Source: an uncultured Dokdonia sp. (GTDB taxonomy: Bacteria > Bacteroidota > Bacteroidia > Flavobacteriales > Flavobacteriaceae). From it: DNA of 64,000 nucleotides. The first letter of the stretch is position 1. Every line of letters starts with the position of its first letter. Below are positions 25,951-32,127 of this stretch, piece after piece. A program made the translations under genes and the position numbers. The stretch lies in NCBI GenBank assembly GCA_947503305.1, contig CANNDF010000004.1, forward strand, positions 62,001 through 126,000. The letters run 5' to 3'. The notes under the pieces were generated by a model that was given only the letters and a program-made list of their open reading frames with translations, did not search any database and was not told where the DNA came from.

Positions 25951-26832
25951 TTAGCTTTTCTTTTGTGCTTTCTCCTGTTGCTTTTTTGCCTTCTTTTCCA
26001 TTTTTTCTAATTTTTGTGCAGCTACAGTAGAGGATTCTTGAGTAGCAAATACCTTATAGCCTAGACCAACACCTAACCAAGGTTTCCCTTGATATACCCA
26101 TGTTCTACCTACACTACCACTTATGTGATCCCATCCATAAAAAATACCTAACTCAAAATCGTTATACTCATATAAAACTCCTAAAAATGGAGTTAAGATG
26201 CTTGCGTTTGTTTCTGTCGCGACTTCTGCGGTATCACTATTAATTTTTGAAGCTCCTATGCTGATACCTCCTAAGAAATTAAAAAAATCGGTTCCGCTTT
26301 TTGATGCTTTAATTCTTAAACCAGCGGCTACCCCCACATTTACATTTCCTTCAAAATCTGAAAATCGCCTTCTGTTTCCATTTTCATCCATTATATCAGT
26401 ACCATCACTTCCGTCTCCAAAACGTATTTTTATAGGTATCGTAATAGCACTGCTCACAAAGCCTATATCTTGTATATCTCCTCGTAATGATTGAGTATAC
26501 TGTTGTTTTTGCAATGATGTCAACACAAAATACTTACCTTCTACCGCACTATCTTCATTTGCAATTGTAATGATAGTGAGCTCATCTTGTATTGTATACA
26601 CTTTAAACACCCATTTCTCTTTTACAGTAGCCGTATTTCCATTAAGTTGGAATGTATCATCTGTTTTAATGTCATTCATAGTCAGTGAAGCTGCACCTGC
26701 TTTTGGTTTTTTTATTGCTTCGTAAATAGTAAATGCATCTGTAAATTCATAATACTGTCCAACTGTTAAAGGTCCTTGGGCATAAGATGCATGAAATAAA
26801 AACGAAAAAATAAGAATGTATAATAGCTTCAT
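25951..26832 (-). CDS. Exported protein of unknown function, member of the 7-2-7 regulon
   Basis: 293 residues with a signal peptide (ending ASYAQ). I recognise no family. The C-terminal half has alternating Gly/aromatic strands (LGGISIGASKI, FLGVLYEYNDFELGIFYGW, PWLGVGLGYKVFA) reminiscent of small outer-membrane beta barrels. It ends in a Lys/Glu-rich tail (KLEKMEKKAKKQQEKAQKKS), which would be odd for a barrel C-terminus. Its promoter carries the same palindrome, at the same distance, as those of the HTH gene and the protease operon upstream, so it is probably controlled by the NarL-type regulator of that cluster. Confidence 0.7.
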   Translation of the reverse strand: MKLLYILIFSFLFHASYAQGPLTVGQYYEFTDAFTIYEAIKKPKAGAASLTMNDIKTDDTFQLNGNTATVKEKWVFKVYTIQDELTIITIANEDSAVEGKYFVLTSLQKQQYTQSLRGDIQDIGFVSSAITIPIKIRFGDGSDGTDIMDENGNRRRFSDFEGNVNVGVAAGLRIKASKSGTDFFNFLGGISIGASKINSDTAEVATETNASILTPFLGVLYEYNDFELGIFYGWDHISGSVGRTWVYQGKPWLGVGLGYKVFATQESSTVAAQKLEKMEKKAKKQQEKAQKKS

Positions 26833-26854: not shown

Positions 26855-26901
26855 CAAATCTATTCATGTTCCTTACAGAGAAACATACCCATTACTGGGT
26901 A
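26855..26901 (-). promoter_or_regulatory. Promoter with 7-2-7 palindrome, site 1
   Basis: On the minus strand the -10 box is TAGATTTG (26855-26862). Exactly 23 bp upstream lies TACCCAT-TA-CTGGGTA (26886-26901, plus-strand reading). This puts the palindrome centre near -45, the place of an activator next to the -33 region. Confidence 0.7.
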
Positions 26902-26919
26902 TTTTAAGGAGTAGGAATT

Positions 26920-27303
26920 TTAATCTAGCTCTTTTTTATTTGAGTAGCTATATGCCATTTTCAATAACGCTCCTGATCCAGATAGCTGTAATTTTTTAAT
27001 CATATTTTTACGATGTGTACTTACAGTTGCTTCACTAATTACCAGCATATCTGCAATTTCTTTTGAAGAAAAATCAAGACCTATCAAATTAAATATTTGG
27101 TTTTGTCTAGGCGATAGTAGCTTAGAATATTGCTCTTGCTTGCTATACATTTTAATGAGATGTATAATTTTGTCAATTAATTCTGGATCATCAGAAATAG
27201 CACGGTATGCAGTAATGATTTTTAGAGTTTGTTCGGTGCTTAATTTTTGGTTTTTTAGGGATATACGTTCAATATTTGAGATAATTTCTAGAGTACTGTT
27301 CAT
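26920..27303 (-). CDS. Orphan LuxR/GerE-type HTH protein
   Basis: 127 residues. The C-terminal 65 residues are a LuxR-type HTH (LLSPRQNQIFNLIGLDFSSKEIADMLVISEATVSTHRKNMIKKL). The N-terminal 60 residues are helical and are not a receiver domain. The HTH resembles that of the neighbouring response regulator (STVEKHRKNMMRKLGLSGKGELLK against ATVSTHRKNMIKKLQLSGSGALLK), so it may bind the same sites, as a co-regulator or competitor. Its promoter carries the 7-2-7 palindrome, 69 bp separate it from the response-regulator gene, and it is the next gene on that strand. Confidence 0.8.
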   Translation of the reverse strand: MNSTLEIISNIERISLKNQKLSTEQTLKIITAYRAISDDPELIDKIIHLIKMYSKQEQYSKLLSPRQNQIFNLIGLDFSSKEIADMLVISEATVSTHRKNMIKKLQLSGSGALLKMAYSYSNKKELD

Positions 27304-27307
27304 TTCT

Positions 27308-27354
27308 CAAATCTAAGTGTGCAATTTCTGATTTAAAATACCCGTCAGTGGGTA
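27308..27354 (-). promoter_or_regulatory. Promoter with 7-2-7 palindrome, site 2
   Basis: The -10 box TAGATTTG (27308-27315, minus strand) and the palindrome TACCCGT-CA-GTGGGTA (27339-27354) are separated by exactly 23 bp, the same layout as site 1. It drives the orphan HTH gene. Confidence 0.7.
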
Positions 27355-27372
27355 ATTTATATACGAAATAAT

Positions 27373-27999
27373 TTAGAACTCATATTTGCGTTCTATGGCA
27401 TATTTTAAGAGTTCGCCTTTACCGCTCAATCCTAATTTTCGCATCATGTTTTTACGATGTTTCTCTACGGTAGAAATAGCTGTAAATCGTATATCTGCTA
27501 TTTCTGAGGAAGTTTTATTTTGGGCAATAAGTTTTAGAATTTCGCGCTCACTTTTGGATAAGATAGATTTGGGAGTTTTTGCTTTTGCGAAAGCATCATC
27601 AAACAACTGTTGATCAATCCCAGCGTCATAATATATGCCTTGCATAACAGCATGAATGGCTTTTAAAAGTTCTTCTAAAGGGCTGTTTTTTAGTATGTAC
27701 CCTTTGGCACCTGCATCACGCATCTGAATAACAGCCTGATCTTGATCAAACATAGAAAATGCAATTACTTTGATATGTGGAAATTCTTTGGTAATAATTT
27801 TGGTCGCTTCTATGCCATCAAGTCTAGGCATACGGATGTCCATAATCACCACTTTAGGTTGTTTTAACCGTACAATGTCTAGAAGGTTTTTTCCATCATT
27901 TGAAGTCCCTATAATGGAAATCCCTTCTTCGTATTTTAAAAGCAAAGTGATCCCGTCTATAAGAGATTGATGGTCTTCGGCAATGGCTACAGTGATCAT
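27373..27999 (-). CDS. NarL/FixJ-family response regulator
   Basis: 208 residues. The receiver domain has the acidic pair in IAEDH, phosphoacceptor Asp54 (VVIMDIRMP), a Ser in AFSMF and a Lys in YILKNSP. The GerE HTH at about 140-205 reads SEREILKLIAQNKTSSEIADI...STVEKHRKNMMRKL. It is encoded 14 bp after the sensor kinase gene and is the best candidate for binding the three 7-2-7 palindromes in this block, since NarL-type regulators recognise heptamers of this type. AFAKA near residue 138 is encoded by GCTTTTGCGAAAGC (27581-27594), one base off the recurrent palindrome. Confidence 0.93.
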   Translation of the reverse strand: MITVAIAEDHQSLIDGITLLLKYEEGISIIGTSNDGKNLLDIVRLKQPKVVIMDIRMPRLDGIEATKIITKEFPHIKVIAFSMFDQDQAVIQMRDAGAKGYILKNSPLEELLKAIHAVMQGIYYDAGIDQQLFDDAFAKAKTPKSILSKSEREILKLIAQNKTSSEIADIRFTAISTVEKHRKNMMRKLGLSGKGELLKYAIERKYEF

Positions 28000-28013
28000 A
28001 ATATGAGTTGTAT

Positions 28014-29774
28014 TTATAAAGGGATGTCTATGCTTATATTGGTTCCTCGGCCTAAAGCGCTATCTACTTCCATGCTACCTTCAAGATGTTCTACACGGCG
28101 TTCTATATTGCCGAGTCCCATGCCATCTTTTTCTTCTAGTTTTCCTACTTTAAACCCTTTCCCATTGTCTTCTATCATCATATTGAGTTCGCTATCATGT
28201 TGTGTCAGTGATATACTAGCTTCTGTGGCTTGGGCATGTTTTACAATATTAGTCACTAATTCTTGTATAATTCTAAAGATAGTAATCTCCATATCATTAG
28301 AAATTCTGTTTTCCAGTCCAAAATCTTGCACTTCTATCTGTAGGTTATTGTTTGAAGACACGGTACGTGCTAGTTTTTGAATAGCGGGTAAAAGGCCTTC
28401 TTTGGCAATCACTCCACTATTGCGTTCATGAGAGATCGTACGTACTTTTGTATAGGCTTCATTGACAAGTGCATTGGTTTTTTTGAGTAAGGCTTTAGGA
28501 TCTTCTACCTTATCAAGATTACGCTCTAAGTTTTCTACCTGCATACGCACGGTAGCTAGTGTGCTTCCTAGATTATCATGCAATTCTCCAGCAAGACGAA
28601 GGCGTTCTTTTTCTTGTCCAGACACCATGGCATTGATGGTTTCCAGTTCTTTTTCTTTAAGAATAGTTTCTGTTTTTTGGATTTGGAGTTCACGATCTTG
28701 CTCAGCAATACGTTGTTTACGTTTGGTATTGCGGTAGACGAGGAAGGCGATGATGGAGCCGAGGAGAAGGGTTGCAGTAAGTCCTATGGTGATTTGTCTT
28801 GTTTTGGCTTTTTGGACTAAGGCTTCTTTTTCTTTTTCTGCAGTTTGATATTTTATGAATGCTTCCTGTTGTGATTGATAATCAATACTATCTTTGATAG
28901 AAATTAGTAATTCTAAATATTTAATAATGCTATCTTGTTCTTTGTTTTTTTGATATGAGCCTATTTTGTTGTTATATATAATTTCTTGTGTTTTTAGAGG
29001 TAGTTTACTGATTTTAACCCCTTTTTTTTCTAAATAGATTTTAGCCATTAGGCTATCTCCCATCTTTTTATAAAGTTCACTTTGATTATTATAGTTTATT
29101 GTTATCAATGCTTTTTTATCTAATTCAATGAACTTATTTAAACTTACAGAATAATAATGACATGCTGAATCATTTTGAGTAGTTTTATCTTTGTAGAGCA
29201 GGCCTATATTCATTTGTATTCGAGCAATTTTTTCTTTGCTATGAATTTTTTTTAATTCATTGATGCAATTTTTATAGTGTTCTAATACGATTTCAATAGA
29301 ATCTTTTTCCCAGGAAAAGTCTGCTTTAATTAAGTGTGCTCTGGCTCTAAAGAGTGAAGATTTATTTTTTGAGGATAAAGCGTAATTAATGAATTTTTCT
29401 CCGTATTCTTTTGGGTCAATATCCAGTTTATTTTGTCTACTAACTAAATCATAGATATGATACGTTGCAAAAGCTTGAGAATGTATGCTATCTAATTTTG
29501 TAAATGTTTCTAAAGAGTTTAAGAGATACGTAAAAGACTCTTGACTTTTTTTATCATCTGTTTTATAGACTAAACCATGAATTAGGTTTTTCTTTCCCAC
29601 AAAATAATAGTTGTCACTTGAAATTTGATTTAACCTAGACAAGGCTATTTCATATAGGTTAGCTTCAATTAAGCTATCTATTTCTTTAATATTCTTATTT
29701 TGAGAAACACCAATACCAGTAATAAAAAATACTACTGGTATAAAAATTTTTGGTATGTATAATTGCTTTTTTAT
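28014..29774 (-). CDS. Sensor histidine kinase (NarX/HisKA_3 type) with probable ATA start
   Basis: The kinase core is clear: HisKA_3 box RLRLAGELHDNLGSTLATVR (His399 in full-length numbering), ATPase motifs LVTNIVKHAQAT and IEDNGKGF, and DGMGLGNIERRVEHLEG. The first conventional start (TTG, 29642) begins inside the sensor domain. The frame continues upstream to an ATA at 29774 and then reads as a proper signal peptide (MKKQLYIPKIF...GIGVSQ), giving 586 residues. The ATA overlaps the preceding gene's TAA as ATAA, the same geometry as the common ATGA overlap. TPR-like helices fill the periplasmic region (about 30-310), and a membrane helix (GLTATLLLGSIIAFLVY) and coiled coil follow. It is the partner of the NarL-type regulator 14 bp downstream. 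Confidence 0.85.
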   Translation of the reverse strand: MKKQLYIPKIFIPVVFFITGIGVSQNKNIKEIDSLIEANLYEIALSRLNQISSDNYYFVGKKNLIHGLVYKTDDKKSQESFTYLLNSLETFTKLDSIHSQAFATYHIYDLVSRQNKLDIDPKEYGEKFINYALSSKNKSSLFRARAHLIKADFSWEKDSIEIVLEHYKNCINELKKIHSKEKIARIQMNIGLLYKDKTTQNDSACHYYSVSLNKFIELDKKALITINYNNQSELYKKMGDSLMAKIYLEKKGVKISKLPLKTQEIIYNNKIGSYQKNKEQDSIIKYLELLISIKDSIDYQSQQEAFIKYQTAEKEKEALVQKAKTRQITIGLTATLLLGSIIAFLVYRNTKRKQRIAEQDRELQIQKTETILKEKELETINAMVSGQEKERLRLAGELHDNLGSTLATVRMQVENLERNLDKVEDPKALLKKTNALVNEAYTKVRTISHERNSGVIAKEGLLPAIQKLARTVSSNNNLQIEVQDFGLENRISNDMEITIFRIIQELVTNIVKHAQATEASISLTQHDSELNMMIEDNGKGFKVGKLEEKDGMGLGNIERRVEHLEGSMEVDSALGRGTNISIDIPL

Positions 29775-30214
29775 ATCCCTACTAATATACTTCCATCCTT
29801 GTCTTTAGGTGTACCATTTGGGTCATTTGAACATACGGGGCCATCATATTTCTTTTGATTCTCTTGCGTACGAATCCACATATTAGCTTCACCACCTACT
29901 CTGAGACTAAAACCTTTTAAATCTACATCTGTTAGGTAATATTTCTTTTGATTAAAAGTTCGATGTCGTGTGATATGTATTTCTAATCTATCGAGTCTTT
30001 TACAATATTTAGCAGAATGTAATTTCCATTTGCTGTTTATACCAGTATTTACATTTGTTAAGGTGATATCGGCAGAAATGATATCTTCATTATTGCCATT
30101 CCAAAAGAAAGTTGCGTGTAATGATATTTCATTAGTATCACTTTTGTCTTCAAAAATAAGTTGTTCAACAGGAGGGTTGTCTCCTACAACTATGTCATGT
30201 CGCTCTGTAGCCAT
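29771..30214 (-). CDS. Hypothetical beta-rich protein, 147 aa
   Basis: No recognised family. It has no signal peptide or membrane segment. It alternates hydrophobic beta strands (EISLHATFFWNG, ISADITLTNVNTG, RLEIHITRH, GFSLRVGGEANMWIRT), suggesting a beta-sandwich or jelly-roll fold. It sits between the protease gene (15 bp gap) and the sensor kinase (4-base overlap), so it is made from the same mRNA. It could be a substrate, inhibitor or ligand-sensing partner of the protease or kinase; this is inference from position only. Confidence 0.75.
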   Translation of the reverse strand: MATERHDIVVGDNPPVEQLIFEDKSDTNEISLHATFFWNGNNEDIISADITLTNVNTGINSKWKLHSAKYCKRLDRLEIHITRHRTFNQKKYYLTDVDLKGFSLRVGGEANMWIRTQENQKKYDGPVCSNDPNGTPKDKDGSILVGI

Positions 30215-30229
30215 ATTATTTAGTTTAAA

Positions 30230-31261
30230 TTAGTAAAAAGAATCGAATTCGAGTTTATTTATAGAAGTTTTGTTATTCTCATGATCTATAAAGGTAGTTT
30301 GACAAAATTCATTGTTGAATATATAATCTATTCTGTTTGCATAAGAAAAAGAGTTTTGTTCTTTATCATCAGCAGCGAATAGTAGCCCTACGACATTTCT
30401 GTTTTTGTTAAATAAAACGGAACCACTATCTCCATCTTCAGACATTTTTTTTAATTGAATTTGTTTTTTGAAAATTTCATTATATCCTTTGGCAATAAAT
30501 GCTTTTACAGTTACATTATTACTTCTAATAACTCCTTCCTTCTTTTCAGAATTAAATCCACGTTTATATATTTTCTTCCCCATTTTTGGTTTTTCAATTC
30601 CCATTAATTTGTTTCTAACTTCAGGGTCTTTAGTAATTAATTTTTTATTCTCAATTCTAAAAAGACCTACTTCAATGTTTTTATTTATAATACCAAAAAC
30701 TACTTTTCCGAAGAATGTTTCTTCTTTTCGCTGACGAGTTTTGACGCCATGTAACCTCGGACGAAAAATTTTATCTAAGAGTTCTCCGTTTTTATTTAAT
30801 AACACATGCCAATTTGAAATCCCAAAAAGCCCTTTTTGATTTTTTAACTTTATAATAGCACCTAAAGTTCCACCTAAAGGCATTTCTTCATGAGAAATAC
30901 TTCCTCCGAAGTTTTCATAATTATTATTATTATCAGGGACGCATGCTATTTTGCTGGTTTTTTTTATTGTAGTTCTTATCTTTCTATTTTGTATTTGACT
31001 TCCTGAACGAGTAGCTCCTTTTTCTTCTTTGCTTTTATCACTGTTGATTGCCAAAAACTCTGGGATATCAATACTTGTAGGAGTTCCTTTTTCAAAATTT
31101 ACGGAATCAGAATAACCAAATTCTAATTTGTATTGGTACATTGAAAAGTAGTTTCGTACAACTGCAATGTATTCAATACCCTCTTTATATATGTAATCTT
31201 CGTCATATTGCTCTAATGCCAGATCGGCTTCTTTTTTGGTAATAAACAATGAATTAAACAT
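30230..31261 (-). CDS. Trypsin-fold (Nal1-like) serine protease
   Basis: 343 residues, no signal peptide. The N-terminal 110 residues are a poorly conserved leader domain. From about 129 (GGTLGAIIKL) the chymotrypsin fold follows: His152 in ISNWHVL, Ser279 in EDGDSGS, and VGLLFAADD after it. This order resembles the bacterial relatives of plant NAL1. At the place of the usual acidic residue (DVAL-type motif) the sequence reads NIEVGL, so the third member of the triad appears to be Glu197. It is the first gene of an operon with an unknown protein, a sensor kinase and a response regulator, and is driven by a 7-2-7 palindrome promoter. Likely a cytoplasmic or conditionally active protease; the substrate is unknown. 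Confidence 0.75.
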   Translation of the reverse strand: MFNSLFITKKEADLALEQYDEDYIYKEGIEYIAVVRNYFSMYQYKLEFGYSDSVNFEKGTPTSIDIPEFLAINSDKSKEEKGATRSGSQIQNRKIRTTIKKTSKIACVPDNNNNYENFGGSISHEEMPLGGTLGAIIKLKNQKGLFGISNWHVLLNKNGELLDKIFRPRLHGVKTRQRKEETFFGKVVFGIINKNIEVGLFRIENKKLITKDPEVRNKLMGIEKPKMGKKIYKRGFNSEKKEGVIRSNNVTVKAFIAKGYNEIFKKQIQLKKMSEDGDSGSVLFNKNRNVVGLLFAADDKEQNSFSYANRIDYIFNNEFCQTTFIDHENNKTSINKLEFDSFY

Positions 31262-31310
31262 CTATATAACTTTTAAAGGTTAACATATTTCTGGACTTGA
31301 TTGAATATTA

Positions 31311-31357
31311 CAAATTTCAACACCTATGTGATAAAAAACCATACCCACTAAAGGGTA
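31311..31357 (-). promoter_or_regulatory. Promoter with 7-2-7 palindrome, site 3
   Basis: On the minus strand GAAATTTG (31311-31318) fits the -10 box except for its first base. Exactly 23 bp upstream lies TACCCAC-TA-AAGGGTA (31342-31357). It should drive the protease-kinase-regulator operon, making the regulator self-controlled. Confidence 0.65.
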
Positions 31358-31435: not shown

Positions 31436-31624
31436 TTACCCTTTGAGGGTATACTTAATTACAAAAAGAAGTGCCACAAAAGTGATAAAGCCTACTAGGA
31501 TCCATTTTGAACCCTTGTATTCTTTGTTATGAAGTCGAGCATCTTTACGATAAGAGATGATCATTAATGCTATAAAAGCGATCACAAAAAAAATGACAAA
31601 AATAAGCTGACCTGTACTAAACAT
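31436..31624 (-). CDS. Small two-helix membrane protein
   Basis: 62 residues from the ATG at 31624 (MFSTGQLIFVIFF). An in-frame ATG eight codons upstream overlaps a -10-like box and is less likely. There are two membrane helices (about 7-24 and 41-59) joined by a basic loop (SYRKDARLHNKEYKGSK). No function is recognised; I believe similar short proteins occur in other flavobacteria. Confidence 0.7.
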   Translation of the reverse strand: MFSTGQLIFVIFFVIAFIALMIISYRKDARLHNKEYKGSKWILVGFITFVALLFVIKYTLKG

Positions 31625-31694: not shown

Positions 31695-31733
31695 ACCTAT
31701 ATTTAGGTTTTAAAAAGATACCCGTATATACGG
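31695..31733 (+). promoter_or_regulatory. Two dyads directly upstream of the MazG-like gene
   Basis: ACCTA-TATT-TAGGT (31695-31708) and the perfect 12 bp palindrome CCGTATATACGG (31722-31733) lie side by side, the second ending 7 bp before the ATG. They could be operator sites or structures in the leader. Confidence 0.4.
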
Positions 31734-31740
31734 ACACATT

Positions 31741-32127
31741 ATGAAAAACAAAATAGCAGCAGTACATGCCTTTCACAATGCTTTTGGGTTAGGAATAGAA
31801 GAGACACCTACGGCACAGTTAACCAAAGAAAAAAATTTACTTCGTTTTAACTTAATGAAAGAAGAAAACGAAGAGTATCTGGAAGCGGCTAATGAAGGAG
31901 ATCTTGTTGAGGTAGCCGATGCACTAGGGGATATGCTGTATATTTTATGTGGTACCATTATCGAGCATGGGATGCAAGATAAAATAGAAGAAGTTTTTAA
32001 TGAGATTCAACGGTCTAATATGAGTAAATTGGGAGCCGATGGAAAACCGATATACCGCGAGGATGGAAAAGTACTTAAAGGTCCTAACTATTTTAAACCA
32101 AATATTAAAGAAATTTTAGATAAGTGA
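31741..32127 (+). CDS. MazG-like/PRA-PH-superfamily nucleotide pyrophosphohydrolase
   Basis: 128 residues, helical. The metal-binding pattern of the all-alpha NTP pyrophosphatases is present: EENEEYLEA (ExxE) followed by LVEVADALGDMLYIL (ExxD). Members hydrolyse nucleoside triphosphates or phosphoribosyl-ATP to the monophosphate. The C-terminal part (GADGKPIYREDGKVLKGPNYFKPNI) is typical of stand-alone MazG-like proteins in Bacteroidota and phages. The natural substrate cannot be told. It is a single-gene unit with dyads before it and a strong terminator after it. Confidence 0.85.
   Translation: MKNKIAAVHAFHNAFGLGIEETPTAQLTKEKNLLRFNLMKEENEEYLEAANEGDLVEVADALGDMLYILCGTIIEHGMQDKIEEVFNEIQRSNMSKLGADGKPIYREDGKVLKGPNYFKPNIKEILDK

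Follow-up and report, generated by a model that had tools for sequence, protein, structure and literature searches.

A palindrome at fixed distance from the -7 box as the candidate operator of a NarL-type regulator and its peptidase-bearing operon in Dokdonia

In Escherichia coli, the NarL promoters ogt and yeaR-yoaG carry 7-2-7 inverted repeats; the NarL site is found at -44.5 at ogt and just upstream of -35 at yeaR-yoaG, and from these positions NarL activates, according to the accessible portion of PMC7419079. In the Bacteroidetes, promoters are built on a -7 box, which spans -12 to -5 in Flavobacterium psychrophilum, as given in the accessible parts of PMC9723704; this study treats sigma motifs, and the terms palindrom, LuxR and response regulator are absent from its main text. 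The 64,000-nucleotide (nt) stretch of an uncultured Dokdonia sp. analyzed here, referred to as the window, contains between positions 26855 and 31357 three copies of an element that combines the two features, namely a palindrome TACCC-N6-GGGTA followed, after exactly 23 bp, by a -7 or, in one copy, -7-like box (TAnnTTTG). The palindromes are proposed, on sequence grounds and with a probability of roughly three in four, to be the operator of a NarL-type response regulator encoded at the same locus, which would activate its own operon as well as exported proteins.

The composite element and its recurrence

The three palindromes are exact matches to the pattern, and all of them are oriented toward minus-strand genes. 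Operator 1, TACCCAGTAATGGGTA on the minus strand (16-bp palindrome core, 26886..26901), is followed at exactly 23 bp by the -7 box TAGATTTG of promoter 1 (26855..26862), whose target is an exported protein of 293 amino acids (aa) (25951..26832, minus strand; signal peptide by eye) with no Pfam family above cut-off. Operator 2, TACCCACTGACGGGTA (27339..27354, minus strand), has the box TAGATTTG at the same distance (27308..27315, minus strand) and precedes an orphan gene for a LuxR/GerE helix-turn-helix (HTH) protein of 127 aa (26920..27303, minus strand; PF00196 1.3e-13). The ATG of the latter lies 4 nt past the box (27301-27315), a distance from which its transcript may be predicted to be leaderless. 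Operator 3, TACCCTTTAGTGGGTA (31342..31357, minus strand), stands exactly 23 bp before the -7-like box GAAATTTG of promoter 3 (31311..31318, minus strand), ahead of an operon for a peptidase-like protein, a partner protein, a histidine kinase and a NarL/FixJ-type response regulator of 208 aa (27373..27999, minus strand; REC, PF00072 2.5e-25, and GerE, PF00196 1e-12). Thus, the positions, the 23-bp distances and the genes described in the initial annotation were all exact on re-check, and so was its statement that the window has no other such palindrome, since none appears even when one mismatch is allowed. The boxes, described there as -10-like, are present at all three sites; they are however Bacteroidetes -7 boxes, perfect at two sites and retaining 5 of the 6 fixed positions at the third.

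By count, three palindromes at up to one mismatch are weakly unusual (shuffle mean 0.79, with 5 of 100 shuffles reaching three), so the case rests on spacing, clustering and recurrence elsewhere. The recurrence was followed with a composite pattern, made of TACCC-N6-GGGTA, N23 and TAnnTTTR, and with the reversed pattern as control. Among 80 loci, kept from 115 encoding relatives of the regulator, the palindrome with a gap of 6 occurs at 99 sites, or 198 oriented sites, while every other gap from 0 to 12 gives at most 12 oriented ones; TAnnTTTR is found at offset 23 in 51 of the 198 and at most twice at any other offset between 0 and 79. The scan of the genome and its relatives that the initial annotation had suggested returned 98 composites in 52 of 299 family genomes, against a single match of the reversed control. 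Twenty-one other spacings (24 to 44) yielded 52 matches when summed, about 2.5 per spacing, versus 47 for the control, so that the 23-bp spacing is approximately 40 times commoner than their mean. The composite is also present in 20 of 197 genomes of a class-level sample, besides the window's own (reversed control, 2 matches); five of the 197 belong to the window's family, and none of these five matches. The composite element is therefore far above chance across the family. The bare palindrome was rejected as a marker, its count being near that of the reversed control in many genomes, and the composite alone is informative. A chance resemblance of three AT-rich intergenic sites, which the shuffles that also reach three matches would allow, is practically negligible in view of this recurrence, of the class-level matches, and of the link to the regulator and the variant composite described below. 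Two class-level genomes of another family, G460 and G519, carry 5 and 6 composites; most of these resemble one another in core and spacer (TACCCACTTWTGGGTATTTTTTG-like), and the set may form a distinct regulon built in the same way.

The conserved site proved longer than the 7-2-7 palindrome initially described, which comes close to it: 82 non-identical composites, drawn from 54 loci with a type-A regulator (see below) and 30 loci added from the family-genome search, give the consensus AAAATACCC-N6-GGGTATTTT, in which ATACC, GGTAT and the box were preset by the search pattern and the inner C/G and the flanking A/T runs were free.

The complete genome (4.26 Mb, 57 contigs) contains five exact palindromes, three of them inside 4.5 kb of the window, and three matches of the backwards pattern. 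At the fourth (C4:357211), which lies upstream of a lipoprotein-like gene, TAGGTTTA follows at exactly 23 bp; at the fifth (C1:336420), upstream of an exported-looking protein, the sequence at 23 bp is only TAATGTTA. Since two of five palindromes stand outside the locus, before exported proteins, the circuit is not confined to it; together with the composites of 21 family genomes devoid of a close regulator ortholog and of the 20 class-level genomes, this contradicts the self-contained regulon that had been proposed. A regulon defined by own-genome matches at up to 3 mismatches was dropped, the noise being too high to name members; C1:237142 and C2:575050 are candidates only, from this loosened search. 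Within the genus, the composite is present in 9 of 18 genomes, including that of the window.

Promoter position, targets and mode of action

In the register of the F. psychrophilum promoter map (PMC9723704, accessible parts), from which that of the -7 box was taken, the operator core is computed to cover -51 to -36, with its center at -43.5. The site thus adjoins the -33 region, as one dimer site at a fixed distance, as in NarL-like promoter-proximal activation. The resemblance to the E. coli promoters ogt and yeaR-yoaG includes a NarL-type regulator, an inverted repeat and a short spacer, and, with respect to ogt at -44.5 (PMC7419079, accessible portion), a site that abuts -35/-33 with its center near -44. 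Unlike the E. coli promoters, the window-type site has a different core and longer symmetric flanks, and it is coupled to the host box TAnnTTTG, identical to that of flavobacterial sigma-A promoters (F. psychrophilum, PMC9723704, accessible parts), at one exact spacing in many genomes. The regulator itself is far below the curated equivalog cut-offs, with 93.2 bits against 250 for NarL and 85.9 against 343 for NarP. The NarL heptamer, to which the sites had been likened, holds as an analogy and not as an identity, TACYYMT fitting one of six half-sites (TACCCAT; by eye).

A signal reaching the histidine kinase would lead to phosphorylation of the response regulator, whose dimer would bind AAAATACCC-N6-GGGTATTTT, centered at about -43.5; placed at a rigid 23 bp from the -7 box, it would touch RNA polymerase, and the single exact spacing suggests that this contact results in activation. 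With the peptidase-like protein, the partner, the kinase and the regulator among the targets, the operon would be under positive feedback. Outside it, the regulator would act on the orphan HTH gene and on exported proteins, both the one encoded alongside and at least one encoded at a distance. In the three window promoters no TTG is found at the -33 place (by eye). Across the 80 loci, 19 of 48 composites have a TTG with a 15-bp spacer to the -7 box, several of these loci being close relatives, versus 2 of 166 other boxes; 13 of the 166 have it at a spacer of 16.

Alternatively, the regulator could use the site for repression. Repression from operators near -35 is possible, and the composites with a TTG 15 bp before the box indicate that some promoters could start unaided; repression does not, however, depend on one exact spacing, whereas 23 bp is found about 40 times as often as the mean of the other spacings. 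The absence of this TTG from the window promoters and the activation exerted by NarL from comparable sites (PMC7419079, accessible portion) speak in the same direction, and repression is considered unlikely.

An ORF (open reading frame) of at least 100 aa starts within 120 bp of the box for 55 of 86 composites, with the ATG at a median of 24 bp past it, and many of the targets are exported or lipoprotein-like (by eye). A box-to-ATG distance of 4 bp is found in 4 of the 55; HTH genes are not the sole case, as one is the caspase-type gene of locus L037. At L039 a related orphan HTH gene is also 4 bp past the box, which is imperfect.

The inverted repeat and a T-rich stretch might instead form an intrinsic terminator, or another RNA hairpin, of the upstream gene. 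Indeed, the three window sites score terminator-like and fold at -8.4 to -12.2 kcal/mol, which corresponds to weak hairpins, and a co-directional gene is the nearest upstream neighbor within 600 bp for 71 of the 86 composites. In 14 of them, however, the upstream gene is opposite or there is none within 600 bp, and one composite is inside an ORF; moreover, at L005 a far stronger hairpin (-24.3 kcal/mol) stands directly upstream of the distant site, it is the -7 box downstream to which the distance is fixed, and the flanks, one A-rich and one T-rich, are symmetric. A terminator is considered very improbable.

Two minor features lie near promoter 3. A look-alike with an N5 gap is found at 31438, within the 3' end of a 70-aa ORF (by eye). 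A terminator-like hairpin at 31718-31737, which ends in ACGGGTAT, stands directly upstream of a PRA-PH-domain gene at 31741; its letters resemble the operators and its palindrome is different.

The binding regulator: orthologs, helix types and the orphan HTH

The closest match of the window regulator is from Dokdonia pacifica (92%). Close orthologs, defined by an E value of at most 1e-60, are present in 59 of the 299 family genomes, one per genome, and are strongly associated with the composite: 31 of 52 composite genomes have one versus 28 of 247 others (p=7.7e-13, a value which, like the one below, is overstated since related genomes are not independent). In the ortholog-bearing genomes, the ortholog is found within 6 kb for 26 of the 60 composites, all of them on its strand.

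The recognition helix of the regulators gives a second line of evidence. The 80 regulators were sorted into type A (54), type B (20) and type C (6), and a motif-blind enrichment test returned as top words ATACC-N8-GGTAT for type A (112 sites, 50 of 54 loci) and ATCCC-N8-GGGAT for type B (21 sites, 14 of 20 loci). For type C the top word was ATGGT with gap 6, and ATACC-N8-GGTAT ranked third (5 of 6 loci). The offset of the -7 box is identical in the three types, with a box at this offset in 56 of 224 oriented sites for A, in 6 of 42 variant and 5 of 24 standard sites for B, and in 4 of 18 for C. In the family genomes, the variant composite, built on ATCCC-N8-GGGAT, is found 27 times, in 21 of the 299 genomes, with a single match of the reversed control; among the 16 in ortholog-bearing genomes, 10 are within 6 kb of the ortholog, all of them co-directional with it. 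The helix was read in 40 of the 59 ortholog genomes, picked with their sites already known: a helix of LFIG/LYIG type is present in 12 of 12 ortholog-bearing genomes with the variant composite; among the 18 genomes read whose regulator has a standard composite nearby, the helix is of type A in 10 and of LFIG or LFIS type in 8. The matching of helix to site, as read from these sequences, is real but one-sided. Either composite is present in 42 of 59 ortholog genomes versus 27 of 240 without ortholog (p=1.4e-19).

Several results weigh against this assignment. LFI-type regulators accompany a standard site in the 8 of 18 genomes mentioned above; helix types are clades, so that the loci are not independent; both composites are missing from 17 of 59 ortholog genomes; a close ortholog is missing from 21 of 52 composite genomes; and 34 of the 60 composites that share a genome with an ortholog fall outside its 6-kb vicinity. 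As for the element, the bare palindrome per genome is not clearly above the reversed control (5 vs 3 in G000, 1 vs 6 in G015), the own-genome search at up to 3 mismatches is noisy (16 matches vs 8 in the control), the box of operator 3 is imperfect and that of the distant site C1:336420 is poor, and for 31 of the 86 composites no ORF of 100 aa or more begins within 120 bp.

The orphan HTH protein could be the principal binder, with the kinase-regulator pair merely nearby. Its HTH is related to that of the response regulator; the orphan gene is present in 7 of the 299 family genomes and the composite in 6 of these 7; one of them, G313, has a composite on each side of the orphan gene and no close response regulator ortholog. 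Composites, however, occur in 52 genomes, and in the Aquimarina loci L043, L047 and L050 a composite directly follows the regulator gene, the sole match to the orphan HTH there being the regulator's own HTH. Among the composite genomes devoid of an ortholog, 14 of 21 were sampled (20 stretches, 25 composites): a LuxR-HTH gene is within 1.5 kb of 7 composites, 2 of them at the orphan HTH of G313 and 5 at other genes, while 18 are not so placed. The composites beside several LuxR-HTH genes suggest that the operator design is probably common to several LuxR-HTH regulators. In genomes that have the orphan HTH, this protein probably uses the operator as well; indeed, to judge from G313, it may still bind it. 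As the principal binder it is improbable, and as the sole binder unlikely because of its presence in 7 of 299 genomes. The response regulator at 27373..27999 is most likely the protein that binds the operators, on the evidence of orthologs and helices. Of the initial proposal that the regulator, the orphan HTH or both bind the sites and that the circuit controls itself, the part concerning a NarL-type regulator, shared promoters, one operator and autoregulation is thus supported by the composites beside orthologs on the same strand and by the variant site with a different helix; the orphan HTH is no general requirement.

At two places in genomes without a close response regulator ortholog (L151:5578-7264 and L164:3389-4153), composites stand directly before or after genes for LuxR-HTH regulators without a receiver match, which may carry a PAS-like sensor part (by eye).

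In listings of the open-licence literature no description of this operator for Bacteroidia was found, searches for the motif with Flavobacterium included. The class of mechanism is known, and the operator code, its spread and the operon described below are new as far as searched. If the proposed function is true, palindrome, 23 bp and -7 box would form a readable DNA code that ties a widespread regulator clade to its targets by sequence alone, and the rule linking helix to site would be testable, as one regulator branch has a shifted palindrome.

The peptidase, partner, kinase and regulator operon

The first gene of the operon encodes a trypsin-fold peptidase-like protein of 343 aa (30230..31261, minus strand), in which His152 and the GDSG motif (Ser279) are invariant across 11 aligned trypsin-like sequences, the window protein included. 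It is followed by the partner protein of 147 aa (29771..30214, minus strand), which is all-beta and shares with its relatives a conserved C-terminal tail, TPxTKDGSIIIG-like, that might be a peptidase or docking signal. AlphaFold models of two partner types (mean pLDDT 74 and 86) gave no PDB match at E <=0.001. The histidine kinase (stop-to-stop frame 28014..29804, minus strand; HisKA_3 and HATPase_c) has an N-terminal signal-like segment and one transmembrane segment (by eye), and a helical-repeat region with weak SNAP/TPR matches. Its frame is without ATG, GTG or TTG ahead of the signal-like segment, near 29768 (by eye); translation may begin at an ATA codon that overlaps the preceding gene's stop, or the frame may contain an assembly error.

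The genes preceding the kinase, here called slot genes, were compared in 55 of the 80 loci and in the window, for a total of 88 proteins; 53 loci were obtained by script, and L036 and L039 were added by hand, their peptidase-type genes being already known. A peptidase-type slot gene is present in 26 of the 55 loci, or in 24 of 53 without the two hand-added ones. Four types were distinguished. Trypsin-like proteins form one cluster (the window and 10 loci) and papain-like proteins another (9 loci, with L073 lacking a peptidase Pfam match), both with weak Pfam scores; subtilase-type proteins, with Pfam E values of 6e-31 or lower, occur at 5 loci, and caspase-type proteins, at 5e-17 or lower, at 2 loci. 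Strict subtilase Ser/His catalytic motifs were found in none of the five subtilase-type proteins, despite these scores. The remaining loci have small beta-type or unassigned proteins. Thus, four unrelated peptidase types swap at the same position (window 30230-31261, L036, L037, L039, L043, L061, L085, L091, L102 and L103), which indicates an operon type where different peptidase folds stand in the same place ahead of a two-component system.

Peptidases of these kinds are known from bacterial conflict systems, in whose operons trypsin, caspase and subtilisin-type domains recur (PMC7159879 and PMC8195603, in their accessible parts). The present operon resembles such peptidase-bearing systems in its peptidase-type domains; unlike in them, the peptidase-type gene precedes a histidine kinase and a response regulator. 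For the vWA-associated effectors, the accessible part of PMC7159879 reports receiver domains and not histidine kinases. Among the 19 Pfam families of the 88 slot proteins (E 0.01; slot genes only), neither an NTPase core (STAND, MoxR-vWA) nor effector-associated domains were present. A swapped-peptidase operon before a two-component system is not described in the accessible parts of these two papers on related conflict systems, the ones that a search of the open-licence literature for it brought up. No claim of anti-phage defence is made, as the PADLOC matches are generic (weak HTH, trypsin-like, caspase and subtilase models).

A broader proposal, possible but doubtful, is that of a Flavobacteriaceae family of self-amplifying signalling operons, in which swapped peptidases would set the state of the kinase, perhaps by cutting the tail of the partner, and one operator code would drive both the module and its exported outputs; cutting of the tail by the peptidase is a guess. 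At L049 (6907-11686), a second slot-plus-kinase block follows the regulator, and the composite comes after this second block and not after the first regulator, an arrangement that looks as if the module had undergone tandem duplication.

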